Source: Gammaproteobacteria bacterium (GTDB lineage Bacteria; Pseudomonadota; Gammaproteobacteria; Pseudomonadales; Azotimanducaceae). Taken from it: DNA of 64,000 bases. Made by a program: the position numbers and the translations under genes. The notes under the pieces are model-generated. The model made no database searches. It was not told the DNA's origin and saw only the letters and a program-made list of their open reading frames with translations. The DNA is taken from NCBI GenBank assembly GCA_009840545.1, contig VXNM01000009.1, forward strand, positions 2,559-66,558, given 5' to 3'. Shown one piece after another: positions 8,470-31,663 of this stretch; position 1 is the first letter of the stretch; every line of letters starts with the position of its first letter.

Positions 8470-11400
8470 TTGGTCGCAATTCAATTGAAACGACTGTTAA
8501 TCGCCAATCGAGGCGAAATCGCGGCTCGTATAGCACGTGCTGCGTCGGATTTAGGTATCGAAACGGTCGCTGTCCACTCGGTCGACGATTCGAGTTGCTT
8601 ACATTGTCGAGTCGCCGATAAGGTTCGTCCACTAGTTAAGACTGGTGTGCGAGCCTACCTGGATATTGAAAATATCGTCTCCATTGCACGAGAGTCAGAT
8701 TGCGACCTAGTTCACCCAGGCTATGGATTCCTCGCCGAGAGCTCTGAATTCGCGCAAAGAACCTTGGACTCCGGTCTCGTCTTTGTCGGTCCCCAACCCA
8801 ACACTCTAGCGCTTTTTGGCGATAAAGCCAGAGCACGAGAAACGGCAAAGGAAATCAATGTACCAATAGTCAGAGGCATCGACGAAGCCATATCGCTAGA
8901 CGATGCTCGACAGTTTCTTAAAGAGCTTGAAGGTGGTCCAATGCTTCTCAAGGCAATTGCCGGTGGCGGGGGACGTGGGTCTAGGATCGTATCCCATGAG
9001 GAGGAGCTTGAAGACTCTTTCAATCGAGCAAGTTCCGAAGCAAAGTCCTCCTTTGGAAACGCCGAACTGTACGCAGAAGAGCTAATACCAAATGCCCGGC
9101 ATATCGAAGTTCAAATCGTTGGAGACTCGCAAGGTAGCGTCTGCCATCTGTATGAACGGGAGTGCAGCGCACAGCGACGTCATCAAAAGGTTGTCGAAGT
9201 CGCACCTGCAATTGGTTTGGACAACGGTGTCCGAGAGCGAATCATCGAGTCTGCAGTTCTACTGGCAAAACACACCAACTATCAGAATCTTGGCACTTTC
9301 GAGTTTCTGGTGAGCGACGATAGATTTTGGTTCATCGAGACCAACGCACGACTCCAGGTCGAACATACCGTTACCGAAGAAATTACGGGAGTGGACCTTG
9401 TCCAAACTCAGCTTCGAATAGCAAGTGGCGAGACCCTTGAAGATCTAGGCTTGGCCAAACCCGTCGGCTACCAAGGATGCGCAATACAAGCTCGCGTAAA
9501 TATGGAGACGATGAAATCCAACGGCGATGTATCCCCTTCCCAAGGAACATTGTCGGTCTACGACGTACCGACTGGGCCCGGAGTTCGAGTTGACGGTATG
9601 GGTTACACAGGCTATCAAACATCGCTCAATTTCGATTCACTGTTGGCCAAGGTGATTGTTCGAGGATCTTCAGTCAAGCAGGCGACCACGCGCTGTACAA
9701 GAGCACTCTCTGAATTCCGTATCGAAGGTCTAGAAACCAACATTCCATTCTTGTCCAACATCGTGAAGCATGAAGATTTCTCAACAGGATCCATAACCAC
9801 ACGCTGGATCGACGAGAACACTGAGAGGTTAACCAACTATGCCGATGGCGATGAGTTCTCTCCTGGATTAGATTCGGCTTCATCTGAACAATCCCAAGGT
9901 TTCGCTGGTGCCCGAGTCGACACCAGCGATCCACTTGCGTTGTTTGCTCATGACGCAAAGGTTAAGGCGGAGGCGAACAAAGAGGAATCTGGGATGGTCG
10001 CAGATGCCGTGGATGCGCCAGAAGGGTCTTCAGGCCTGAGTTCTCCAATTCAGGGGACGATCGTTTCTGTCGATGTTTCGGATGGCGACGAAGTGGTTAG
10101 CGGACAGCAAGTTGCCGTTGTAGAAGCAATGAAGATGGAACACGTGATTGCTGCAGAGCACAACGGCATTGTGCGTAAAGTCACTATGAATGAAGGTGAT
10201 GTTGTATTGGAAGGCTATCCGATCGTCTTCGTTGAACCCACTGAAATCTCTGCGACGGGATTGAAGAGTGTCGATGAAGTCGATCTAGATCACATTCGCG
10301 ATGATCTCAAGTTGACCTACGATCGGCACTCGTATATTTATGACGAGAACCGGCCAGAAGCGGTCGCCAAACGTTATGCCCGCGGGTATCGAATGCCTCG
10401 CGAAAATATTGCCGAGCTTATGGACGAGGGTAGCTTTAGAGAGTATTGGCCGCTAATCGTTGCGCGACAGCACAGTCGCCACGATATGGAAACACTGCGT
10501 AAGAACACCCCTGCTGACGGTTTGATCGCGGGCATAGGCACTGTCAATGCCGACTTGTTCGGTGAGGAAGCCGCGAGAACGATGCTGGTTCACTACGACT
10601 ACACCGTATTGGCGGGAACTCAGGGGGGACGCAATCACTACAAGCAAGACCGAATGTTCGAGCTCGCAAGTCGATTTCGAATTCCACTCATCCTCTTTGG
10701 AGAAGGAGGCGGAGGACGTCCAGGGGATGATAGTCGTGGTCCTGGAGTTGCTTTCGACACTCACACATTTACGCAGTTTTCAAAGCTCTCGGGCTTGGTT
10801 CCGTTGATAAGCGTGATAAATGGACGAACGTTCGCTGGAAACACCGCACTTGTGGCGTGTTGCGACGTGATCATTGCAACCGAGAAAACTACCGTTGCAA
10901 TGGGTGGACCTGCCATGATCGAGGGTGGTGGATTGGGCATCTACACACCCGAAGAAGTCGGTCCCATGTCGTTTCAGGTGCCGAACGGTGTAGTCGACCT
11001 ACTTGCGAAAGACGAAGCAGATGCAGTACAAGTGGCCAAGAAGTACCTTTCGTACTTTCAAGGATCCACGGAAACGTGGGAATCTCCCGACCAACGTCGA
11101 CTTCGCCACATCGTTCCAGAAAACCGACTACGCCTGTACAACATGAAAGACATTATCTACACGCTTGCAGATGTGGATTCAGTGCTGGAAATTCGAGAGA
11201 AATTTGGGATTGGCGTAATCACAGCGTTTATTCGGGTCGAAGGCAAGCCCATGGGAGTGATAGCCAACAATCCACACCATTTGGCAGGCGCAATTGATTC
11301 TGACGGAGCCGACAAAGGGGCTCGATTCATCCAACTTTGCGATGCTTTTGACATTCCTGTGCTGAGCCTGATGGATTGTCCCGGAATGATGGTCGGGCCG

Positions 11401-19958: not shown

Positions 19959-21119
19959 ATGCGACTAAATCTCTCATTGCTTGCCCGTTGGAAACTTGCT
20001 TTCTTAGTCGTTCTTCTTCTCTTCGTCCTGATTATGATTTGCGGTGCACTCATCTTCGGATCTTCCAGATACGAGAGGCAAGCGGCAGTTGAGGTTGGCA
20101 CCGAGAAAGCAAATGAAGGGAGTGTCGGTTTGGGTTCCATTAGTTCTCGCGATCAACAACTTGAGCTAGCCACACTTTCGTCCAATGCCGAAAGTGCCAA
20201 AGATCACCGTGATCCCAGTATTGCATGCACAGGGGTGCAGTGGTGGAAAATCGAACACGAGAAAATGATTCCGCAAGAGTGTTTAGATGCGCTGGAGTAC
20301 AAATTTCTCGATGAGGATGCTGGCAAGTACGCCTATAGTGAAATGAGCTTTGGAACGACAATCACTTTCCGAAGAATTTTCGCTGATCCAGTGGGTGACA
20401 TAGAAAGGGTGTTAGAGGCTCTTCATCGCAACGATTGTTGGAGCGAGGAAGTCTATTGGAGTCGATCGGCGAGAAGAGAGAACTGTCACTCAGAATCCTT
20501 TGTCAGTTACGGAATCTTTCAGAATCTATGTGGTTACATTGATACGAAGAGAAGGAGAGCTTCACTGCAGGATCACTGGGTGAAAGCCCGCTGCCAACGA
20601 ATGATCGAAGGATTCGACGAGTCGATTTACTTGGAGAAGTTCTCCGCATCTCCTCTCTCTAACCTTATGCAAGAGTACTACGAGCGGGAGGACATTCGAT
20701 CCATCCATCACTCGATTCTGCTTCTGGCGGTGGACATGATTGACGAAACGGCTATCGGTCTGTCGTTTATGGATAGCGAACTTCACAGAAAATATGCTTG
20801 GAAAAGTCCCTTGCCGGTAATGCGGATGATTCCGCACTGGGACGAGATCGGGTTGATCGAGAGGATTGAAGTACCCACAATTGACCACAGACGGGCAATG
20901 GAAATCGCTCTTGATGTGGCATTGGGGTTGGAGGAACTTGGCGTTGAACCGAATTGGAAAAACTTGGTGGACGAGTCCCTACTGTGGGTAACGACCGACA
21001 CCGATACATTTCAGGACGCAATCGTCGAGCTCAGTACAAGTATAGATCCAATCAGTGACCATCGGAAGCTTCGTGCAATGCGCACAATGGAGCGTACGTT
21101 CTTGGATCAGAATAACTAG
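19959..21119 (+). CDS. Hypothetical membrane-anchored protein
   Basis: 386 aa, family not recognised. One strong N-terminal membrane helix at residues 12-35 (KLAFLVVLLLFVLIMICGALIFG) follows a basic start, so the long C-terminal part is probably periplasmic. That part contains conserved-looking Cys pairs (IACTG/PQECLDA, NDCWSEE/RENCHSE, NLCGYID/KARCQRM) that could form disulfides. It then has a mostly helical Glu/Asp-rich stretch with HHSILLLAVDMI and ALDVALGLEELG. The layout (anchor plus helical body) recalls the array at 4190-8039 but the DP-repeat is absent. No catalytic motif is visible. Confidence 0.7.
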   Translation: MRLNLSLLARWKLAFLVVLLLFVLIMICGALIFGSSRYERQAAVEVGTEKANEGSVGLGSISSRDQQLELATLSSNAESAKDHRDPSIACTGVQWWKIEHEKMIPQECLDALEYKFLDEDAGKYAYSEMSFGTTITFRRIFADPVGDIERVLEALHRNDCWSEEVYWSRSARRENCHSESFVSYGIFQNLCGYIDTKRRRASLQDHWVKARCQRMIEGFDESIYLEKFSASPLSNLMQEYYEREDIRSIHHSILLLAVDMIDETAIGLSFMDSELHRKYAWKSPLPVMRMIPHWDEIGLIERIEVPTIDHRRAMEIALDVALGLEELGVEPNWKNLVDESLLWVTTDTDTFQDAIVELSTSIDPISDHRKLRAMRTMERTFLDQNN

Positions 21120-21302
21120 ACGATAGAACACATGGAGCAAGTTACTTGCCCCTTGTAACGCCGTCAGTTCAACATCGCTTGACTTGTTGCCAGAAATTAC
21201 GCAACCAAGAGAGATAACAGGACGGCATCCAAACCATCCTCCACCCTTGTGTCGCCGCTCGTTGCACCAACAAGTACACTGTGCAGAGGGAGGAGACCGG
21301 TT

Positions 21303-22097
21303 GTGCAAGGTTCGAGCGAGTTCGAACAACTTCAGATCACGATACCCACAGGTGATGTCGCTTACATCAAAGCGGGCCACGGCGAACCGGTTGTTTATCT
21401 TCACCACAGCTGGGGAAGCCCGGGAGCCCTGCCCTTTCATCACAATCTTATAGCGACAGGCTTTAGCACAACCATTCCTGATATGCCGGGATGGGGAGGA
21501 TCCACCCGACCGGTCTGGGCACGTGATGTTCGTGATATCGCGATCCTCATCGGAATCGCGATCGACACTCTTGGGCTAGGTCCTGTCACGCTGATTGGCG
21601 CTGGGTTCGGAGGGTACGTTGCCGCGGAGCTGGCCACAATGAGCCCATCTCGAATTGCACGTCTTGTCTTGATGGGAGCAGTTGGACTTTATCCCGATGA
21701 AGGCGAAATCCTCGATCAAATGATGTTGTCGCACCGACAATACATTCAAGAGAGTTTTCGAGATCGACAAACGTACGTTGAGCACTTTGGCGAAGAACCC
21801 GACGCGCAGATACGAACTCTGTGGGATCTGTCTCGAGAAATGACCGCTCGGGTCTCATGGAAGCCCTACATGCACAACCGTCGATTGCAGCATCTCTTGC
21901 CCAACGTCACTTGTCCCTCCCTCATTGTGTATGGTGAGAAGGACAAAGTGGCACCTCGATCCCTAGCTCAGCAATTCGAGAAAATTCTTCCCAACGCGAA
22001 GTTGGAATTAGTGCCCAACGCGGGCCATTTGGTTGAATTTGAAGAACCAAAAGTTGTGGCAGACCTAGTTTGCGAACACATGAGAAGATGTAGCTAA
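21303..22097 (+). CDS. Alpha/beta-hydrolase-fold protein lacking the nucleophilic serine
   Basis: 264 aa from GTG 21303, chosen because a strong GGAGGGAGGAG ribosome binding site lies just upstream; a GTG at 21249 is possible. The fold is clear: oxyanion region HHSWGSPGA, DMPGWGGS, strand-loop IGAGFGGYVAAE, acid YGEKDKVAP and His NAGHLVEFEEP. In the nucleophile elbow, usually GxSxGG, the Ser position is Gly (codon GGG at 21603-21605). Converting it back to any Ser codon needs two base changes, so a read error is unlikely. The Asp and His are present. It may be a binding protein or a non-hydrolytic enzyme such as a cofactor-free dioxygenase. Only 16 bp precede the monooxygenase gene, so they share an operon. 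Confidence 0.85.
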   Translation: MQGSSEFEQLQITIPTGDVAYIKAGHGEPVVYLHHSWGSPGALPFHHNLIATGFSTTIPDMPGWGGSTRPVWARDVRDIAILIGIAIDTLGLGPVTLIGAGFGGYVAAELATMSPSRIARLVLMGAVGLYPDEGEILDQMMLSHRQYIQESFRDRQTYVEHFGEEPDAQIRTLWDLSREMTARVSWKPYMHNRRLQHLLPNVTCPSLIVYGEKDKVAPRSLAQQFEKILPNAKLELVPNAGHLVEFEEPKVVADLVCEHMRRCS

Positions 22098-22113
22098 GAG
22101 AGGAACCGTATAG

Positions 22114-23448
22114 ATGTTCATCGGCCACTTCACCGAACGCCCCTATCAGGATCCAGAGTCGGGCTACTTCGGCGCAACAGGACGAAGTATCACGGATCTG
22201 ACGATGTCTAACGCGTCCTATGACCCAAAACTTGGTGCTCGACTCTATAACCGCTACCTCGACGAGAAAATCTACGCCGAAGAAATGGGATTTGACGGAC
22301 TAATGCTCAATGAGCATCACTCCACGCCGTTCTGCATGGGAGGAGTGATGAATCTCGAAGCAGCAATTTTGGCGCGGATCACGCACAAGTCCAAGATTGT
22401 GCTACTTGGGAACATACTGCCGATTTGGGACGATCCTTTGTTTCTCGCTGAAGAGCTTGCGGAAATCGACATGATTTCAGAAGGTCGATTGGTCACTGGA
22501 TGGGTTCGGGGCACAGGAAGAGAGAGCGTCGCGCACAACGCGGTCGCACCCTACAACTGGGAACGATTTCAAGAAGCGCACGACTTCATCATTGATGCTT
22601 GGACACGACCAGGGCCATTTCGTTGGGAGGGTGAACACTACCACTTCAGATATGTCAATCCATGGGCTAGACCCTATCAGGATCCTCATCCACCTATTTG
22701 GATTCCGGGAGTCATGAGTCGCAACACGGTGGCTTGGGCCGCCGAGAAGCGTTATCCGTATGTCATGTTGGCCACCGAGCTAGAACCAACCAAGGAGTCC
22801 TATGCGTACTACACGGAGGTTGCTAAGGAACACGGATACGAAACCGGAACGCAGCATCGCGGTTACTTGTTTAAAGTTCACGTCGACGAAACGGAGGAAT
22901 TAGCGGAGCAGGCAGGTCGGAAATTCGTACAGGGACCGAGTAATCCGTTTCTGGAGGGAAACCAAGGTGTCGTACGTCCCTTCATTCAGAACCTGCCTGG
23001 GCTAACGCAACGAAACAATCTCTTGCCAACTATGAGGAGTTTTGCTGCGGCAGCTTCGCGAGGCAGAGTCGCTCAGCATAAGTCTGAGACCAAGAAACCC
23101 ACAGAGCAAAAGAAACCGGAGAAGTTTGATACGTACGTCGATCAAACCAAGAAGTACAGCATCATTTCGGGAACCCCTAAAACGGTTATCCCCAAGGTTA
23201 AACATGTACTGGAGACTCTGAGACCTGGTTCGATTTTCTTCTGGGACGGTGATGGTGCGATGTCACACGAAGACTCAATGCGAAGCTTGCGCTTGATGGG
23301 TTCGGATGTGATTCCCGCTGTACGGGAGATTGCTGACGAATTGGAGCTTAAGAGTCCCTTTGAAGTCGATCCCAAGACTAATCAACGTATAGTGGATTCG
23401 AACACAAGCGATTCGCCTGACAATTCCTCGGAGTCCGAATCTCCTTAG
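22114..23448 (+). CDS. Luciferase-like (LLM class) flavin-dependent monooxygenase
   Basis: 444 aa, longer than the usual 330-380. The TIM-barrel core shows bacterial-luciferase landmarks: FDGLMLNEHHSTPFCMGG, LARITHKSKIVLLGNILP, DMISEGRLVTGWVRGTG, and PPIWIPGVMSRNTVAWAA. These enzymes use reduced FMN (supplied by a separate reductase) and O2. The C-terminal tail (residues about 315-444) has a lysine-rich insert before the final barrel elements, ending in a Ser/Asp-rich tail. It sits 16 bp after the hydrolase-fold gene and 10 bp before the halogenase-like gene, so the three form one transcription unit. The substrate is unknown. Confidence 0.88.
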   Translation: MFIGHFTERPYQDPESGYFGATGRSITDLTMSNASYDPKLGARLYNRYLDEKIYAEEMGFDGLMLNEHHSTPFCMGGVMNLEAAILARITHKSKIVLLGNILPIWDDPLFLAEELAEIDMISEGRLVTGWVRGTGRESVAHNAVAPYNWERFQEAHDFIIDAWTRPGPFRWEGEHYHFRYVNPWARPYQDPHPPIWIPGVMSRNTVAWAAEKRYPYVMLATELEPTKESYAYYTEVAKEHGYETGTQHRGYLFKVHVDETEELAEQAGRKFVQGPSNPFLEGNQGVVRPFIQNLPGLTQRNNLLPTMRSFAAAASRGRVAQHKSETKKPTEQKKPEKFDTYVDQTKKYSIISGTPKTVIPKVKHVLETLRPGSIFFWDGDGAMSHEDSMRSLRLMGSDVIPAVREIADELELKSPFEVDPKTNQRIVDSNTSDSPDNSSESESP

Positions 23449-23458
23449 CAAGACATAG

Positions 23459-25048
23459 GTGAGTTCCTCCGCTCCCATACTTGTAGTTGGCGGCGGTCCT
23501 GCGGGCAGCACAGTCGCCACACTATTGGCCCAACGCGGTTATACCGTCTTCCTGTTTGAACAAGCAAAGTTTCCACGCGATCATATTGGAGAGTCGCTAC
23601 TTCCGGCAACGCTAGCCACGCTCGAACTCTCCGGTGCCCTTGATGCTGTCCGAAGGGCTGGATTCGTCGAGAAGGCTGGAGCAACGATGGTTTGGGGGAA
23701 GGAAACTGAACCATGGACGTGGTACTTCCGAGAGACTAACACCCGATTTCCGTACTCGTATCAGGTCAATCGTCCTGAATTTGATCAACTCCTGCTGCAG
23801 CATGCAGGGGAAGTTGGAGTGCAGATTCATGAGCAAACACGGGTTGACGAAGTGATATTTGACTCGGGCAGGGCTATTGGAGTTCGAATTCAAGACGAGC
23901 CAATCGAAGGCTCATTCGTAGTTGATGCAACTGGACAGAGTTGCCTTATCAGTTCGAAACTTCAAGGAAGAAACTGGGATGAAGACTTCGTAAATCTCGC
24001 AATTTACAACTACTTCTCAGGCGCAAATCACCTTATAGGCGATGATCGTGGAAACATTCTGATTGAGTCTGTGCCAAATGGCTGGCTATGGAAAATCCCA
24101 CTCAAGAACAACGTTTCCAGCGTTGGGCTGGTTGCTGATCGCGACTCAACCGTAAAAGCAATTCGAAGGACAAATACTGAGCACGTTTTTGCTACGGCCC
24201 GCGAAGAATCGAAGATCGTACGTGACCTACTATCTGGTTCACACTGCAATTCCAGATCCATTGTCACACGCGACTGGTCCTATCAGTCGAACAGATTCGC
24301 TGGATGCGGCTGGGTATCTGTAGGAGATGCAGCATGCTTCATCGATCCGTTGTTTTCCACTGGAGTACATCTTGCAGTCAGTGGCGCGTTTCTAGCGGCC
24401 GCCCTAGTGGACACTTCGCTTTCCGATGTTGGATTAGTAGCTGAAGCTACACAATCCTACGAGGGGCTCTACCGTCAACAGTATGAGCATTTCCGAGAAC
24501 TCACTTCTTTGTTCTATTCTGGAAACCGAACGGTTGACTCTTACTTCTGGGAATCTCGACGCATCACCAACCACGAGAATTACGCTCCCCGAGAGGCCTT
24601 TATTCGAACGGTCTCGGGCCAAAACGTAGCAGGTTATGAGCGTTCGGTACTACACCACGCTGCCACACCCGACAAGTTTGATGAAGAACTTCGCAAGTTT
24701 GATGTTGGACTCAATCGTCGGAGAGTCGAGCTGAACAACGCAAATCTTCTTGAATCTACTGTTGTTTGTATAGCCGGAGTTAAAGTTGCAAGCAGCGTGG
24801 TACTTGATGGCGCACGATTCTCGCGGAGCAAAGTAATTCGTGGTGAGGACCGTGTAGATTTAGCAGTGAGCGATTTTGTGGCAGAAGTCGTTCAGTATTG
24901 TGCGGTGCCCAGAACAGTCTCTTCACTAGTGCAACAAATGACGGTAACCAGTCAATCAAGCAAGATTGTGGAGATGGTCACATCAACCATAGGTCTACTT
25001 GTGATTGACGGAATTCTTGAGCTAGTTGGGTCTTCTACCAACAACTAA
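23459..25048 (+). CDS. FAD-dependent halogenase-like monooxygenase
   Basis: 529 aa from GTG 23459. FAD dinucleotide motif VGGGPAGSTVATLL at residues 7-20 and E-rich strand end VFLFEQ. The FPRDHIGESLLPATL segment is typical of the non-tryptophan flavin halogenases. WLWKIP (near residue 207) matches the WxWxIP fingerprint that separates halogenases from ordinary hydroxylases. The second FAD motif is GDAACFIDPLFSTGVHLAV. The last about 100 residues (from IAGVKVASSVVLDGARF) form an additional small domain reminiscent of winged-helix/PqqD-like carriers. It could chlorinate or brominate a carrier-bound or phenolic substrate; a simple hydroxylase is the alternative. It ends 4 bp from the convergent Rieske gene. 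Confidence 0.8.
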   Translation: MSSSAPILVVGGGPAGSTVATLLAQRGYTVFLFEQAKFPRDHIGESLLPATLATLELSGALDAVRRAGFVEKAGATMVWGKETEPWTWYFRETNTRFPYSYQVNRPEFDQLLLQHAGEVGVQIHEQTRVDEVIFDSGRAIGVRIQDEPIEGSFVVDATGQSCLISSKLQGRNWDEDFVNLAIYNYFSGANHLIGDDRGNILIESVPNGWLWKIPLKNNVSSVGLVADRDSTVKAIRRTNTEHVFATAREESKIVRDLLSGSHCNSRSIVTRDWSYQSNRFAGCGWVSVGDAACFIDPLFSTGVHLAVSGAFLAAALVDTSLSDVGLVAEATQSYEGLYRQQYEHFRELTSLFYSGNRTVDSYFWESRRITNHENYAPREAFIRTVSGQNVAGYERSVLHHAATPDKFDEELRKFDVGLNRRRVELNNANLLESTVVCIAGVKVASSVVLDGARFSRSKVIRGEDRVDLAVSDFVAEVVQYCAVPRTVSSLVQQMTVTSQSSKIVEMVTSTIGLLVIDGILELVGSSTNN

Positions 25049-25052
25049 GCAC

Positions 25053-26801
25053 CTAGAACATGTCGTCAGCCGTTTCTCGACGTGCGAATCTTCGCGCTGT
25101 GCGAGTTGCTCGGTCGTTATCGTTCCTCTGTCGAACATCTGTGGCAAATCGAGCAATGCCAATTAACAGTTTGTTACGTGCAGGATGTGATGAGCATTGC
25201 CCGTATTCATCCAAGACGGTGCGCAACGTTCCGAGCAAATCGGTTCCCGTGTCGTGCTTAAGAATGGTCAACGCTAATTCTGTAAGTAGTTCGTTTGGAT
25301 CGAAATCAGACCTCAAGTAAGCTCGAACCTGTCCTGCGACCTCAGCGGTTCGGATGGATTCGATGTGTTCAACAATTTCCTTACATGCTTCCGTCGAGTT
25401 TTCTTGTTGTGATGGTGCGCCGTCGTCAATACGCAACAGGTCACTAGGTTGAAGATTCAACCATCGATTTTGATAGAAATGCCATGCAGCAAAGTAAGTC
25501 GCGTTGATTGCATTCTGGTAGGTTCCATATTTCAACACTCGCCGAATCGAAGAGGAAAGTTGCATTTCGTTCGATATATTGAACCAACCGGGGCTGAAAC
25601 TCGCTGGAGTTCGCGCCATGCGATCACCAGCGAGCATGACCATAGTGTCGACAAGCTGCGAAACATGAGCACCTTGCTCAAATGCATGGGTAACGCCATT
25701 GAAGGTAGCCTTTAAATCTCCGCTGAACAGACACTCGGCCAGCATCGACTCGTCATATCGTTTGGCCAGAGAACTTGGCTCGTTTGAGAATTTCTCAATC
25801 AAAGGCTGAATTTCATTGAGAAACTCGATGCTGTCTCTTGTGTCTCCCTGAGGTGTTCCTCGATTCCTACCCGCAACTTTAGCTCCTAAATTGCAAACCA
25901 TAGGACCGCAGAGTTCCCAACCAAATGTATCGATGAGCTCAGCTAAATCACCAATATGCACGACGTTTTGGCTGAACATGAGGAAACTAGGTTCAAGAAC
26001 GCAGTCGTACAGGAGAGGAATAATCTTTGAGTCGTTGCTTCCACAGTTCCTTGCCGTGATCAAGCACTTTTCGATACCTTCCCACATACGGTCCCTTGAG
26101 AACATGCGAGTCCAGCTCGCCAACCGCTCCCAATCAAGATCCCCGGGTAATGGCTGCGGTCGAATACGATCTCCTGCACGCCCCGAAGCTGCCTTGGCTG
26201 CAATCATTAGCGGAATGAGCCGATCCTCCTTTTCGAGCCTGCGAGACACTGCAATGCCATTAAGAAGTTGATTCAGTAGGAACGCGCCATTTGCACCATG
26301 GTCGGATGCAATGTGCTTTCCCAAGTGTTCGATGAGATGGTCGAACGTTTCTTCCTCCGACACGCCTTGCGCAAGCATGATGGCTATTGCTTTGGACAGA
26401 ATCCAGTTGTCTCTACTGAGTAGCGCTTCTTTCAAAAGCAAATAGTGTGAGTCCGTGCGCTTCGAGGAAACTCCTGCTACTTGAACGTAAACGCTTCCGT
26501 TTTCGACGCGTACTGCAAATGTGTCGAGATCGTCGCAACCTCCGGTAAAGCACCCTCCTCCATCCATGGCATAGCTCCAACCATGCCAATCACATTGCAA
26601 GACACCGTTTCTTGTCCGGCCTCGAATAAGTGGGTAGCCCATATGCGGACATTGGTTGTCGGTGGCATAGAAACGTCCGTTGTGGTTGAACAACGCAACA
26701 CTTCGATTGCCAACGCGAACGGCCATCGCCTTTTCAGGCGGAAGGTCATCAGTGCTCGCGACGCGTACAAATTCTTTTGTGTTTTCGATTGCTTTGCTCA
26801 T
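25053..26801 (-). CDS. Rieske [2Fe-2S] domain protein with large helical C-terminal domain (copy B)
   Basis: 582 aa from ATG 26801; an in-frame TTG at 26816 would overlap the preceding stop. The Rieske domain occupies residues about 10-115, with cluster ligands C51/H53 (CPHMG) and C70/H73 (CDWHG) at the usual CxH-16-CxxH spacing, then GGCFTGGCDDLDTF. The remaining about 460 residues are helical, with IEHLGKHIASDHGANG, KIIPLLYDCVLEPSFLMFSQN and LAELIDTFGWELCGP as blocks shared with its neighbour. I do not recognise this domain. It is not the alpha subunit fold of ring-hydroxylating oxygenases, since no 2-His/1-Asp motif of the (D/E)xxHxxxxH type is seen. It lies directly downstream of copy A in the same operon. 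Confidence 0.8.
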   Translation of the reverse strand: MSKAIENTKEFVRVASTDDLPPEKAMAVRVGNRSVALFNHNGRFYATDNQCPHMGYPLIRGRTRNGVLQCDWHGWSYAMDGGGCFTGGCDDLDTFAVRVENGSVYVQVAGVSSKRTDSHYLLLKEALLSRDNWILSKAIAIMLAQGVSEEETFDHLIEHLGKHIASDHGANGAFLLNQLLNGIAVSRRLEKEDRLIPLMIAAKAASGRAGDRIRPQPLPGDLDWERLASWTRMFSRDRMWEGIEKCLITARNCGSNDSKIIPLLYDCVLEPSFLMFSQNVVHIGDLAELIDTFGWELCGPMVCNLGAKVAGRNRGTPQGDTRDSIEFLNEIQPLIEKFSNEPSSLAKRYDESMLAECLFSGDLKATFNGVTHAFEQGAHVSQLVDTMVMLAGDRMARTPASFSPGWFNISNEMQLSSSIRRVLKYGTYQNAINATYFAAWHFYQNRWLNLQPSDLLRIDDGAPSQQENSTEACKEIVEHIESIRTAEVAGQVRAYLRSDFDPNELLTELALTILKHDTGTDLLGTLRTVLDEYGQCSSHPARNKLLIGIARFATDVRQRNDNDRATRTARRFARRETADDMF

Positions 26802-26808
26802 TTTCGAT

Positions 26809-28566
26809 TTACTCAAAGATCTCTATTGTTGTCTTGCCTTGCGCAAACCTTGAGGCGGCATAGGCGGCCGAAGTGTCTTCAGTGTTTGATCGAATGTCGG
26901 TTGCGTATCGTGCCAGTCCAACAATCAGTTGAAAGCGAGCTGGATGCATCGAACCTAACTGTTCATCGTCTCCACTACAGTTTTCCCATTCCTCAAACAC
27001 TGTCCTTAAGGTGGGAAGGACGTCCTGCCCTGAGTCATCTCTAAGAATGGCTCGACCAAGTTCGTGTAATAGCCGGTTTCCACTATGACCCGCCTGTAAA
27101 TAGCCAAGAACTTGCGACCCTACAGCGTCAACGTTGAGAGTATTCACGGATTCGAGAATCACCCCAAGCGCCGAGTCTTCAGTCTTTCCTGGACTATCAA
27201 CCGACTCGAGGTCTCCCCGGATGTCTCGTTCCTGAATATTGATCCAGCGATCGGTAAAGACTTGATAGGCCACATGGAACAGTCCACTTGCTACGATCGA
27301 GAAGCCTCCATGTTCAATTGCCCGACGCATTGCTGATGCTACGTTCAATTCGACGGTCAGATTCTCCCATCCTGCATCAACAGAGACAGGGGAGCGCGCC
27401 ATGCGATCTGCCGCAAGTAGCACCAAAGTGGTAATGATTCGATTGATGGATATGCCCTTTCGTAGCTCGTTTGCTAGTGCATCGAAGGACTTGACGATGT
27501 CCACATCCAATAACGAGTTCACAAGTCCTCTCTCATCGAACTCGGCTCCGTTCGACCGTTGCGAAATCTCTAGACTGTCGATCTCAAGTTCAATCATGTG
27601 CCGAATTGCATCTCGGCGGAATCTCTCTGGCTCGCTTCTTCCCTGACCGACCAAGTTGGCACCAAGCCAAAATACGAGCTCGCTGGAGTTCTCCCATCCA
27701 AAAGTGCTCACAAGTTCAGCCAAGTAAGCCAATGAGATGAGGTTTTGTGAAAAACCCATGAAATAGGGTTGGACCGCACAGTCGTAAAGCAACGGAATGA
27801 TCTTTTTCGAATCTCCCTCGTTATGTGCTGTGAAAAGGCAGCGCTCAATCCGATGTCCTTGTCGGTCTCTAGAGAATTCCTTCACCCATCTGGCTGTTTG
27901 ATCCCAGTTGTACGGCGGCGGCATGGGTACGATTTCGGTCCTTTCGTGGGCTTCGCCAGCCGCTGACCTGGCAGCAGTGGTCAGTGCTATAAGCCGGTCC
28001 TCACCTGTGTAACGCCGACCAACATGCACACCGTTTACAAGCCTCGATACGTCTTCGCCACCTTCGGGACCATGTGAACTAGCAATGTGGCGTCCCATAT
28101 GGCTGAGAATGAGATCAACCACTTCTTGCTCATCTACGTTTGTATCCAGGAGCAATGCCAGAGCCTTGGACATTGTCCATCTGTCATCGCCTAACAAACC
28201 CTCCCAAAGCAGTCTCAAGTTGGCTTGAGTTTTGGGTGGTCTGTCGGAGATATATTGAACCCAAACAAAATCGTCTTCAATCTTGATGGGAAAGACATCC
28301 AAGTCGTCGCATTGAGAATGAAAGCAACCACCGGATTCGAGATCGAAGGCGCGTCCGTGCCAATCGCAGGTGAGTACTCCATTCTTGACACTCCCCCTGA
28401 CCAATGGGAACCCCATATGCGGGCATTGGTTGTCCGTTGCGAAGTAGCTTCCGTCCCAGAAAAAAACCGCCGCCGTTCTTCCGTTCGGCATTGCAATTGC
28501 TTCGGCTTGGCCATCTTGCAACGATCCGCAACGAATCGCCTTCACCCACTGGTTTTCTTGTGTCAC
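26809..28566 (-). CDS. Rieske [2Fe-2S] domain protein with large helical C-terminal domain (copy A)
   Basis: 585 aa from GTG 28566, supported by AAGGA 5 nt upstream and by the length of copy B. A reading from 28728 would add 54 non-homologous residues. Rieske ligands C48/H50 (CPHMGF) and C67/H70 (CDWHGR), then GGCFHSQCDDLDVF. The helical region shares LSHMGRHIASSHGPEG, KIIPLLYDCAVQPYFMGFSQN, LAELVSTFGWEN and a C-terminal LHELGRAILRDDSGQDVLPT with copy B, so the pair arose by duplication and then diverged. The conserved His-rich block (H-G-x-H-I-A-S-x-H-G) could bind metal or haem, making a mixed Rieske oxygenase or electron-transfer enzyme conceivable. Its start faces the TonB receptor gene. 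Confidence 0.8.
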   Translation of the reverse strand: MTQENQWVKAIRCGSLQDGQAEAIAMPNGRTAAVFFWDGSYFATDNQCPHMGFPLVRGSVKNGVLTCDWHGRAFDLESGGCFHSQCDDLDVFPIKIEDDFVWVQYISDRPPKTQANLRLLWEGLLGDDRWTMSKALALLLDTNVDEQEVVDLILSHMGRHIASSHGPEGGEDVSRLVNGVHVGRRYTGEDRLIALTTAARSAAGEAHERTEIVPMPPPYNWDQTARWVKEFSRDRQGHRIERCLFTAHNEGDSKKIIPLLYDCAVQPYFMGFSQNLISLAYLAELVSTFGWENSSELVFWLGANLVGQGRSEPERFRRDAIRHMIELEIDSLEISQRSNGAEFDERGLVNSLLDVDIVKSFDALANELRKGISINRIITTLVLLAADRMARSPVSVDAGWENLTVELNVASAMRRAIEHGGFSIVASGLFHVAYQVFTDRWINIQERDIRGDLESVDSPGKTEDSALGVILESVNTLNVDAVGSQVLGYLQAGHSGNRLLHELGRAILRDDSGQDVLPTLRTVFEEWENCSGDDEQLGSMHPARFQLIVGLARYATDIRSNTEDTSAAYAASRFAQGKTTIEIFE

Positions 28567-28798
28567 GAGGGTCCTTAAGTTGGTGTTTTGCAATATCTTA
28601 TTACATGCCCAACGCAAAGAGACGGCTGGGTAAACCGTGCTCCAATTCTTGAATCGGTTACTCCAATCGATCGCAGATTGTCCCGACAAGAACCAAAAAA
28701 ACTGCGATTGAACCAGTCTTGCCGGCATCGATACAATTTGTTAGAAATCGCGAACGACTCGGTCCCACTGACGCTCTACTCTCACCACTAAACAGAGG

Positions 28799-31663
28799 AT
28801 GACATTGACTCAATACGTGCTTCAAACTTGCCCAATCGATATCAAGAAACTAGTCGCTCTCCCTGTGCTGCTAACCCTTGCTACAACTTTAAACGTCGTC
28901 CTCGCAGAAGAACCGGCGTTAACCGAATCAACCGTAGTCACCATCGATGAGGAGATCATTACGGTTGGAACTCGCGTTCCGAGCAGAACAACGCTAGACA
29001 GCACTGTGCCAGTTCAATTCTTGTCTGAGGAAGATGTCGAGAGTGTCGCGACAGCAACGGATTTGGTCGACGTGGTACAACGCCTGGTGCCTTCCTTCAA
29101 TGTATCGCGGGAACCCATTTCGGATGGAGCATCCTTTATGCGTCCTCCCTTCGTACGAGGGCTGGATTCGGACAAGGTGTTGGTGTTAGTCAATGGAAAA
29201 CGCCGTCACAAGGGTGCGCTTGTTCGACCAGGAGGGAGTGGTACCCATGGTCCTGATATCGCTGGTATTCCAGCCTGTGCTCTCAAGTCGATTGAAGTAT
29301 TACAGGACGGAGCTAGCGCACTGTATGGATCCGATGCAATAGCCGGAGTAATCAACTTTAACCTCAGGGAAGAAGTCAAAACGACTTCATTTGTTGCCAC
29401 GGCTGGTGAGTACACGCAAGGAGGGGGAGACGTTCGATTTGCGGGAAACGTAGGAGTCGATTTTCTAAAGGGATTTTTAACGTTGTCGGGTGAATTCAGC
29501 GATTCAAGAGGAACATCTCGTGGAAAGAGATATGACCTAGCTGTGGGAGGTGGCAGTGGATTGACGCCTCAGCAAAGTGCTGAAGTTGCTATCGATACTG
29601 ACGGAGACGGCATTTTGGATCGATTTGGTCCCGACTCACTGACGGAGATACGAGACTCAGACGGCAGGCTGCTAAGTTTGGTCTGGGGCGCAGACGGTCT
29701 GCCAGACGATCTCACTCCAAAGTACAAGGAAAACCTCCCCATTCCTGAACAAGTCTGGGGAGAACCGAGTCGAGAAGACTTCAAACTTGTGGCAAATTTT
29801 TCACTGCCCGTTGAATTTGACGCTTTTCAAGGCGCACACCTGTACGGTTTTGGGACGTTGCGCGACAGCGAAAGTAGTGGGTCTTTCTTCTACCGCCGAC
29901 CGGGAGTAGGTCAACTGAATCCCATTCGACTGGCAGATGGATCGATTTACAACCCGCGTGATCGTTTTCCTGGCGGATTCACCCCAAGATTTACCGGCAA
30001 TGTCAGCGATGCATCTTGGGTCTTCGGCATAAGACAAGATTCCAACGAACTTCTCACTTGGGATGTCAGCACCAGATATGGCCGAAGCGCAATGGCTTAC
30101 GAGTTGGAAAACACATGGAATCCGTCGATGGGACCAAGTTCGCCGACACACTTCCGACCCGGCGAGTTGGTCTCCACAGAAATGGCGGTCAACGGAGACT
30201 TCGAATGGATATGGACCGATCTGTACGCACATCCAATTTTCGTCGCATTTGGACTCGAATACCGCAATGACTCATATGAAATACTTGCTGGAGACGAAGC
30301 ATCCTACTCTGCAGGTATATTTGCTCGATTGGATCCATTCAACTGGGACGTAACCCAACAAGAGGTGGATGCCGATCCAAACGACGACTTAGTTACGTCT
30401 GGCTGTAGGCTGGATGGCCATGCGGAACTCATTGCGTCCGACCCCAGTGTCTTCGCACACCCAGGAGGGAACTGTATTGCTGGCGACCCCATCTATAACG
30501 TCATGTCAGTAGGCTCAAACGGATTTCCGGGGTACTCTCCGAGATACTCTACGGATCGTTCTAGGGGCGGTTTCGCTCTTTACTTGGATCTGGCAACGTC
30601 GCCTAGTCCGCAGTTGACGACAGACTTCGCACTCAGACTCGAAGACGCTGGTGCCTATGGTTTTGTAACTACCGCCAAATTTGCTGCTAAGTATGACCTC
30701 TCCGATCTAACAGCCGTTCGGTCCTCACTGAGCACGGGCTTCAGAGCACCCACTATTGGTCAGATTTCAACCATCAGCGTGAGTACACGGATCAATGCAG
30801 ATGGAAATCCTGTCGCAGAAGGAATTTTTCCGACAAGCCATCCTGTTTCAGAGTATTTTGGTTCACAACCACTAGATCCAGAACGTTCAAGACACTTCAC
30901 TGCGGGACTCATCATTGCTTCGACTCCAGGACGAGGACCTCAATCCCTTCTTGGAATTGCACCCATTTCAAGCAGTCAATGGCACATAACGCTGGACGGT
31001 TATATAGTAGATCTCAACGACAGACTCACTCTGACTTCGCCGTTTGTCGTCGACGATGTTGCGCTCAGGGATCTTCGTGCTTTGGGAGTTGCAGAGGCTA
31101 ATTCAATTGCGCAAGTCATTTATTTCTCTAACGCGTTGGCAACCAGATCAATGGGTGTTGAACTAGTTGGAGAGTATGAGTTCGCATCAAGTCTGGGAGA
31201 GACCCGTGTTTCTAGCGCTTTAAATTGGAACAAGATCGAAATCACAGACCAGGACCCTCAAACGAGGTCCGATGGAACTACGTTTCTGCTCGTAAATGCG
31301 GAAGGCCTTTTTGACTTTGAACACACTTGGCCCCAGTATCGTGGCGTCTTTTCGTTAAATCACCTACTCAGAAATGGGATGAAAGTGATGGTGCGAGCAA
31401 ACAGATTTGGTTCTCACAAAAACGCAAGTAACAGTTCTCTTTCAACAATTCAGGAATTTGATGCGAAGTGGCAATGGGATATGCGATTCGAATTGCCGTT
31501 TACCCGCAACTACAGTGCTACCGTGAGCGTAGTCAACGCATTTGATGCAGTTCCCGACACTGCCCAGTTTGAGGCGTGTTGTGGTCGGATTGTGCGTTCC
31601 GACTCCCTCGTTCCATGGCAGGGACCTTACTACTCATTAACAGTAAGGTACCGTAGCAATTGA
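28799..31663 (+). CDS. TonB-dependent outer-membrane receptor
   Basis: 954 aa. Signal peptide of about 36 residues ending in NVVLA before EEPALTES. A TonB-box-like EEIITVGTR at about residues 51-59. Plug domain about 60-190 with PPFVRGLDSDKVLVLVNGKR, PACALKSIEVLQDGASALYG and SDAIAGVINFNL. The rest is a 22-strand-type barrel ending in YYSLTVRYRSN. It imports a large or scarce ligand (siderophore, cobamide, glycan or lipid) using TonB-ExbBD energy; none of those partners is in the window. RPGGSGTHGPDI and the insert DTDGDGILDRFGPD (calcium-loop-like) are family features. SD AGAGG just before the ATG. The 232 bp between it and Rieske copy A should hold both promoters. Confidence 0.92.
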   Translation: MTLTQYVLQTCPIDIKKLVALPVLLTLATTLNVVLAEEPALTESTVVTIDEEIITVGTRVPSRTTLDSTVPVQFLSEEDVESVATATDLVDVVQRLVPSFNVSREPISDGASFMRPPFVRGLDSDKVLVLVNGKRRHKGALVRPGGSGTHGPDIAGIPACALKSIEVLQDGASALYGSDAIAGVINFNLREEVKTTSFVATAGEYTQGGGDVRFAGNVGVDFLKGFLTLSGEFSDSRGTSRGKRYDLAVGGGSGLTPQQSAEVAIDTDGDGILDRFGPDSLTEIRDSDGRLLSLVWGADGLPDDLTPKYKENLPIPEQVWGEPSREDFKLVANFSLPVEFDAFQGAHLYGFGTLRDSESSGSFFYRRPGVGQLNPIRLADGSIYNPRDRFPGGFTPRFTGNVSDASWVFGIRQDSNELLTWDVSTRYGRSAMAYELENTWNPSMGPSSPTHFRPGELVSTEMAVNGDFEWIWTDLYAHPIFVAFGLEYRNDSYEILAGDEASYSAGIFARLDPFNWDVTQQEVDADPNDDLVTSGCRLDGHAELIASDPSVFAHPGGNCIAGDPIYNVMSVGSNGFPGYSPRYSTDRSRGGFALYLDLATSPSPQLTTDFALRLEDAGAYGFVTTAKFAAKYDLSDLTAVRSSLSTGFRAPTIGQISTISVSTRINADGNPVAEGIFPTSHPVSEYFGSQPLDPERSRHFTAGLIIASTPGRGPQSLLGIAPISSSQWHITLDGYIVDLNDRLTLTSPFVVDDVALRDLRALGVAEANSIAQVIYFSNALATRSMGVELVGEYEFASSLGETRVSSALNWNKIEITDQDPQTRSDGTTFLLVNAEGLFDFEHTWPQYRGVFSLNHLLRNGMKVMVRANRFGSHKNASNSSLSTIQEFDAKWQWDMRFELPFTRNYSATVSVVNAFDAVPDTAQFEACCGRIVRSDSLVPWQGPYYSLTVRYRSN

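Follow-up and report, generated by a model that had tools for sequence, protein, structure and literature searches.

A pair of Rieske proteins from an unnamed family

The 64,000-nucleotide stretch of Gammaproteobacteria DNA analysed here (contig VXNM01000009.1, positions 2,559 to 66,558; hereafter "the window") encodes two adjacent proteins, A and B, both of which consist of an N-terminal Rieske [2Fe-2S] domain and approximately 470 helical residues. Judged by sequence comparison, this pair is a strongly changed, duplicated branch of a broad and unnamed family of Rieske-fused proteins. The family is real and unstudied: literature searches, as far as titles and abstract openings go, returned nothing on a Rieske-helical family, and the window pair is assigned to no known enzyme family. 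With somewhat less than even confidence we favour the reading that A and B work as a pair, a Rieske oxidoreductase whose active site has been remodelled.

Both genes lie on the minus strand. The upstream copy, gene B (26809..28566), starts with GTG and encodes 585 amino acids; it was delimited by its open reading frame, its Pfam Rieske match and its place in clade iB of the family tree described below. The downstream copy, gene A (25053..26816), starts with TTG, encodes 587 amino acids and falls into clade iA. An alternative start of A is the ATG at codon 6 (26801), leading to 582 amino acids, and the reading frame of B is open further to an ATG at 28728, leading to 639 amino acids. With the TTG and GTG starts the genes overlap by 8 base pairs (bp), and with the ATG start of A a gap of 7 bp separates them. 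The proteins share 38% identity across 587 aligned columns (E 3e-157), so that their likeness is not due to chance. This is in agreement with an earlier note on the same DNA, which had described two adjacent Rieske proteins with a shared helical part and the motifs HIAS.HG and LLYDC; Pfam and, for A, an AlphaFold2 model confirm this architecture, and both motifs are present in both copies. A comparison with locus L010 shows purifying selection on each of the two domains in A as well as in B, with 0.095 nonsynonymous (dN) and 2.9 synonymous (dS) substitutions per site in B, and a dN of 0.11 with saturated dS in A.

The conserved unit is the two-gene pair. The order B then A on one strand was observed in 17 of 17 loci from genomes of three phyla, these loci having been selected for holding both genes (the window, L010-L013, L065-L068, L091-L096, L118 and L119). 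The 8-bp overlap, counted on the longest open reading frames, recurs in L010 and L011, and L013 has an overlap of 4 bp. In the tree A and B form separate orthologue clades, each covering the window's genus and two other phyla, which argues for one duplication that preceded the spread of the pair. Within the window's genus 5 of 18 genomes carry the pair and none carries a single gene alone; in the rest of the window's family three genomes show one long match each and one shows a fragment. In the phylum of genome G371 (Latescibacterota) both genes are adjacent in 11 of 16 genomes, one further genome has a split B gene and one a partial B gene. In L096 (genome G825) the B gene is split at about 9525-9540, by either a real break or an assembly error. 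The pair was also seen in 6 of 64 genomes from the phylum to which the Gemmatimonadaceae bin G372 belongs.

The Rieske domains

The Rieske domain of A comprises residues 16-112 (26481..26771, minus strand; PF00355, E 2.2e-17) and that of B residues 6-104 (28255..28551, minus strand; PF00355, E 2.2e-14; PF13806, E 2e-10), where the CxH...CxxH motif is intact. The PF00355 scores of the two window proteins, 63.2 and 53.5 bits, lie well above the curated cut-off of 20.3 and place both in this family; their NCBIfam Rieske matches fall below the NCBIfam cut-offs. None of the cluster ligands C56, H58, C75 and H78 is substituted in any of the 14 proteins aligned. A full-length model of A, with a predicted local distance difference test score (pLDDT) of 84.2, gave 423 PDB matches at E <= 10 with Foldseek, and the 50 of them that were listed are all Rieske proteins. 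The window proteins thus have in common with Rieske-type ferredoxins and NirD/HcaC-like domains (PF00355, PF13806) an N-terminal part of about 100 residues with CxH...CxxH, but unlike these they carry a fused helical domain of about 470 residues.

The helical domain

The helical domain spans residues 118-587 of A (25056..26465, minus strand) and residues 108-585 of B (26812..28245, minus strand), and the two align along their length. Outside the Rieske part no Pfam model (E <= 1) and no NCBIfam model (E <= 0.1) matches either window protein. The AlphaFold2 model of residues 118-587, made for A and built on an alignment of 10 sequences, has a mean pLDDT of 88.6 and a predicted template modelling score of 0.89, and consists of 24 helices and no strands. 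Of its 265 Foldseek matches against the PDB at E <= 10 none reaches E <= 0.001; the best, a transporter with E 0.43 and a template modelling score of 0.13, is noise. A fold search of BFVD likewise gave 153 matches at E <= 10 and none at E <= 0.001, and searches of PDB chain sequences with the family profiles found no credible relative. Foldseek has difficulty with folds made up entirely of helices, so that the missing match to the predicted structure is no proof of a new fold.

The earlier note had called the helical domain unrecognised and different from the ring-hydroxylating oxygenase fold, and had proposed structure prediction and a fold search. Both of its statements hold for the searches given above: no characterised enzyme was matched, and no library used names the family. 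Rieske non-heme iron oxygenases (PDB 6wn3, 1ww9) likewise have a Rieske domain at the N-terminus, ahead of a larger one; in the window proteins, however, this larger part, modelled as purely helical, matches no oxygenase catalytic domain. Among the 50 of 423 matches listed for full-length A, the alignments with oxygenases (116-157 columns) are of much the same length as those with stand-alone ferredoxins (97-131). An oxygenase alpha subunit was rejected on the grounds of the absent Pfam family, the all-alpha model and the lack of a PDB match at E <= 0.001. A number of weak matches were taken as chance or coiled-coil similarity, namely MgsA_C (group ii protein, E 0.066), B12-binding_2 (group iii protein, E 0.014), HIV capsid (profile A7, E 0.06), optineurin (group ii protein, E 0.0015 over 80 residues) and cadherin (A, E 0.33).

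The wider family

We defined the family by a Rieske motif ahead of a helical part of 350-600 amino acids that matches profile A4, a definition which includes the window pair. The motif CxWH stands in front in 87 of 87 collected family reading frames of at least 500 amino acids (82 once duplicates are removed); shorter family reading frames were left out, as were, before the groups were counted, five truncated duplicate copies. The family tree has four groups. Group i is the pair type of the window with its sub-clades A and B, group ii is a single-copy type, group iii comes from the G372 phylum, and group iv, a distant branch, has members in 5 of 398 genomes of the window's phylum, one of them the window's own. 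The group iv copy of the window's genome lies outside the window (L003:1453-3090; G000:C3:240477 on) and encodes 545 amino acids, of which Pfam recognises the Rieske part alone.

The distribution of the family is uneven. It is present in 45 of 64 genomes of the G372 phylum and in 16 of 16 of the G371 phylum, compared to 4 of 398 genomes of the window's phylum, the window's own among them; a single-sequence search of the window's class found the window's genome alone (1/369). When the helical domain of A served as a tblastn query against plasmids, 11 records at about 20% identity were obtained, ten annotated as Rieske and one unannotated. With a group ii query 89 records were found, 24 of which cover at least 80% of the query and come from cyanobacteria, haloarchaea, Bacilli, rhizobia and Paraburkholderia; the remainder (36 of 65 listed) match about 14-22% of the query, corresponding to its Rieske end. 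Three pattern matches in viral contigs include no relative. The group ii "Rieske (2Fe-2S) proteins" of about 580 amino acids share the architecture of the window proteins, with helical domains about 20% identical. They differ in being single-copy at the loci read, and in keeping invariant His and Lys residues that the window pair has lost.

Invariant residues and a candidate metal site

To compare the groups we counted residues per column in 19 A, 14 B, 42 group ii, 5 group iii and 5 group iv sequences; the A and B rows include near-identical sequences from related genomes, so their counts overstate independence. In the numbering of group iv, His165 and His368 are present in all sequences of groups ii (42/42), iii (5/5) and iv (5/5). 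His293 is kept in groups ii (42/42) and iv (5/5) and is missing in group iii (0/5), which has a His six columns further on in 5/5. Lys172 occurs in 42/42, 5/5 and 4/5, respectively. Pooled over the 52 rows, two His positions are filled in 52, the third in 47 and the Lys in 51. This near-invariant His/Lys set of the sister branches, which come from cyanobacteria, haloarchaea, Bacilli, rhizobia and Gemmatimonadota, looks like a metal site.

The window's own clade is different. At position 165 the A sequences have N9 E5 D2 Q2 H1 and the B sequences D5 R5 Q3 G1; at 293, R10 H6 N2 W1 and T5 R4 V2 M1 L1 N1; and at 368, N10 H5 D3 E1 and E5 Q5 D2 V1 R1. As these columns are variable, the site of the sister groups is not conserved in the window paralogues. 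Clade i instead has polar residues of its own in 33 of 33 rows: H164, C272, D398, E417, E537 and H544, and further E130, D136, E249, C251, D522 and D560. D522 is common to clade i and groups ii and iii, E417 lies one residue from the lost position 293, and C272 eleven residues before the lost position 165. With regard to the two motifs, H164 and C272 (the C of LLYDC) are kept throughout, compared to 26/33 for H168 (the H of HIAS), and some relatives lack the HG that closes the block.

The earlier note had taken conserved His, Cys, Asp and Glu residues as a hint of a second metal or cofactor site, and had named their absence across homologues as the finding that would speak against it. When all groups are taken together, the helical domain has not one invariant His, Cys, Asp or Glu; within clade i and within the sister groups such residues exist. 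As worded, the suggestion is thus not supported for the family as a whole, and the note's counter-test speaks against it neither in clade i nor in the sister groups. A second site in the window's clade is possible, and since this clade lacks the sister-group histidines and has invariant residues of its own, any such site would be a remodelled one.

Functional interpretation

Any interpretation has to start from what is established, namely how the proteins are built, that they occur as a pair, to which family they belong, that the old histidines are lost and that selection is purifying. Rieske proteins are textbook electron donors, and to our knowledge the enzymes fed by Rieske proteins within one chain are nearly all of one fold. 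According to the reading we tentatively put first, A and B would together make up a single redox enzyme, each as one subunit. Their genes go back to an old duplication, and as they are kept adjacent, their products would most likely form a hetero-pair. Each Rieske cluster may take electrons from a cellular donor and pass them to the helical domain. In the sister branches this domain probably houses a His-rich non-heme metal site; in the window's branch the old ligands are gone and could be replaced by a remodelled site made, for example, from H164, C272, E417 and H544, with D522. The function would then be metal or cofactor binding and the oxidation or reduction of a small molecule.

In favour of this reading we count the constant gene order, the two orthologue clades, the overlapping or nearly touching genes, the purifying selection, the intact Rieske ligands and the invariant residues of the sister groups and of clade i. 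Several observations weigh against a paired oxidoreductase. The sister-group His positions are kept in neither paralogue, and a non-catalytic scaffold would show the same loss. D560, invariant in the 33 rows of the table, is replaced by Gly in protein A of both L118 and L119, so the invariance falls with sampling. Furthermore, the pair has no constant substrate-linked neighbour, a halogenase and a luciferase-like monooxygenase (LLM) standing beside it in 2 of 17 loci.

Ranking close behind, and in our estimate possible rather than probable, is a redox scaffold or sensor, in which the helical domains would have given up catalysis for the binding of partners or ligands, and the Rieske clusters would signal the redox state or shuttle electrons. 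The loss of the sister-group histidines in both copies next to intact Rieske ligands would fit such a role, as would the neighbours, which vary among the loci and thus indicate no single pathway, and the polA gene directly upstream in 7 of 17 loci. The purifying selection across the helical domain and the new invariant polar residues, however, suggest a specific site.

A more far-reaching proposal, which we regard as doubtful, is that of a new Rieske-dependent enzyme class, with a fold unseen in the PDB. The sister groups would have kept an ancestral His-rich metal site, and the window's branch would have become a duplicated heterodimer in which the site was rebuilt; electron delivery by a fused Rieske domain would then have evolved independently of the ring-hydroxylating oxygenases. 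The family, found in haloarchaea and several bacterial phyla, including all 16 sampled genomes of the G371 phylum, may represent a second, unstudied use of Rieske domains. Thanks to the invariant histidines of the sister groups, a metal site there is open to direct testing. The window pair may illustrate how such a site is rebuilt or lost after duplication.

Comparison with questin oxidases

A third explanation, that of a Rieske-fused non-heme iron dioxygenase of the questin-oxidase type (PF14027; 7y3w BTG13, 8z4q PaD, 8yxs AflY) with the same ligand set, appears improbable for the window pair, and the likeness behind it concerns groups ii-iv. The iron site of BTG13 reportedly consists of four His and a carboxylated lysine. 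The five sequences of group iv have five invariant His (62, 159, 165, 293 and 368) and an HxxK motif in 5/5, all of which are also present in the 545-residue protein of the window's genome. Profile A6, built from eight bacterial questin oxidases, retrieves PaD, BTG13 and AflY from the PDB. Its sequences share invariant His at 132, 248 and 320, and the seven that extend far enough also have an N-terminal His at 39. Four of the group iv histidines (62, 165, 293 and 368) match these in order and resemble them in spacing (gaps of 103/128/75 compared to 93/116/72). In hhalign comparisons with a profile of nine questin oxidases, group ii scored 29.0 and groups ii, iii and iv together 27.2, each above all 150 column shuffles, the latter being aligned at an H-x-x-T motif.

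This motif-level likeness is opposed by an hhalign probability of 5% at best and by the shuffles, which reach the real score in 12/150 cases for group iv alone, 33/150 for A and 85/150 for B. No PF14027 match was found in 14 family proteins scanned (2 from the window, 7 + 5 relatives). Questin oxidases are also absent from the PDB sequence searches with profiles A4, A7 (60 of 86 matches listed) and A9, and from the 50 of 265 Foldseek matches listed for the helical model of A. The questin oxidases fetched are mostly about 350 amino acids long, lack the Rieske front of about 100 residues and gave no significant sequence or fold match to the family in the searches just named. At their His positions the window's clade is variable; three such positions were tabulated, and all three are kept in groups ii and iv and two in group iii. 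PF14027 itself occurs in 1 of 150 genomes of the window's phylum, and in 0 of 64 of the G372 phylum, where control families likewise gave no match. We thus rejected membership of the window pair, given the missing ligand His, the missing PF14027 match and the shuffles that reach the scores of A and B. A distant kinship is a lead for groups ii-iv, suggested by their sequences, and the comparison holds no evidence of it for the window pair.

Genomic neighbourhood

Beside the pair the window contains a row of genes for an alpha/beta hydrolase, an LLM and a flavin halogenase-like protein (21249-25048), the last with CmlS and QhpG as best NCBIfam matches, below cut-off. Upstream of the hydrolase gene lies a reading frame of 386 amino acids (19959-21119) with no NCBIfam match and a chance-level Pfam match. 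That A and B are a Rieske ferredoxin pair serving the adjacent halogenase or LLM, with the helical part as a structural tail, is highly improbable: the three neighbours adjoin the pair in the window and L010, but the DNA fetched for the remaining 15 of the 17 loci, L011 among them, did not show them (two of these loci, L012 and L068, lie on short contigs, 9 and 8 kb long), and a domain of about 470 residues is large for a tail.

On the other side an intergenic region (28567..28798) separates the pair from a divergent TonB-dependent receptor gene (28799-31663), a layout repeated in L010 and L011 (3/17 loci). Like all counts of neighbours given here, this one refers to the DNA fetched at each locus. 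The polA gene, identified by Pfam in L013 and L094 and by tblastn in the other loci, lies on the same strand as the pair in L013 and L091-L096, which belong to two phyla; in L013 (982-3804) it is separated from the pair by 17 bp, and a further example is L094:6002-8764. Four haloarchaeal plasmid loci of group ii were read, and at three of them (L016:7568-10983, L017:7166-10593 and L026:10084-13556, not L025) the group ii gene is directly followed downstream by genes for both subunits of ribonucleotide reductase, alpha and beta. Together with polA this raises a possible link of the family to nucleotide or DNA metabolism.

No constant partner emerged among the 12 annotated group ii loci. An alpha/beta hydrolase gene lies within about 3 kb of the group ii gene in five of them (L015, L020, L022, L023 and L024), and none was seen at L016-L019, L021, L025 and L026. 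At a pair locus of the G372 phylum (genome G800), two genes from the pair, one reading frame combines a PhyH dioxygenase domain with HEAT repeats (L065:6481-7962).

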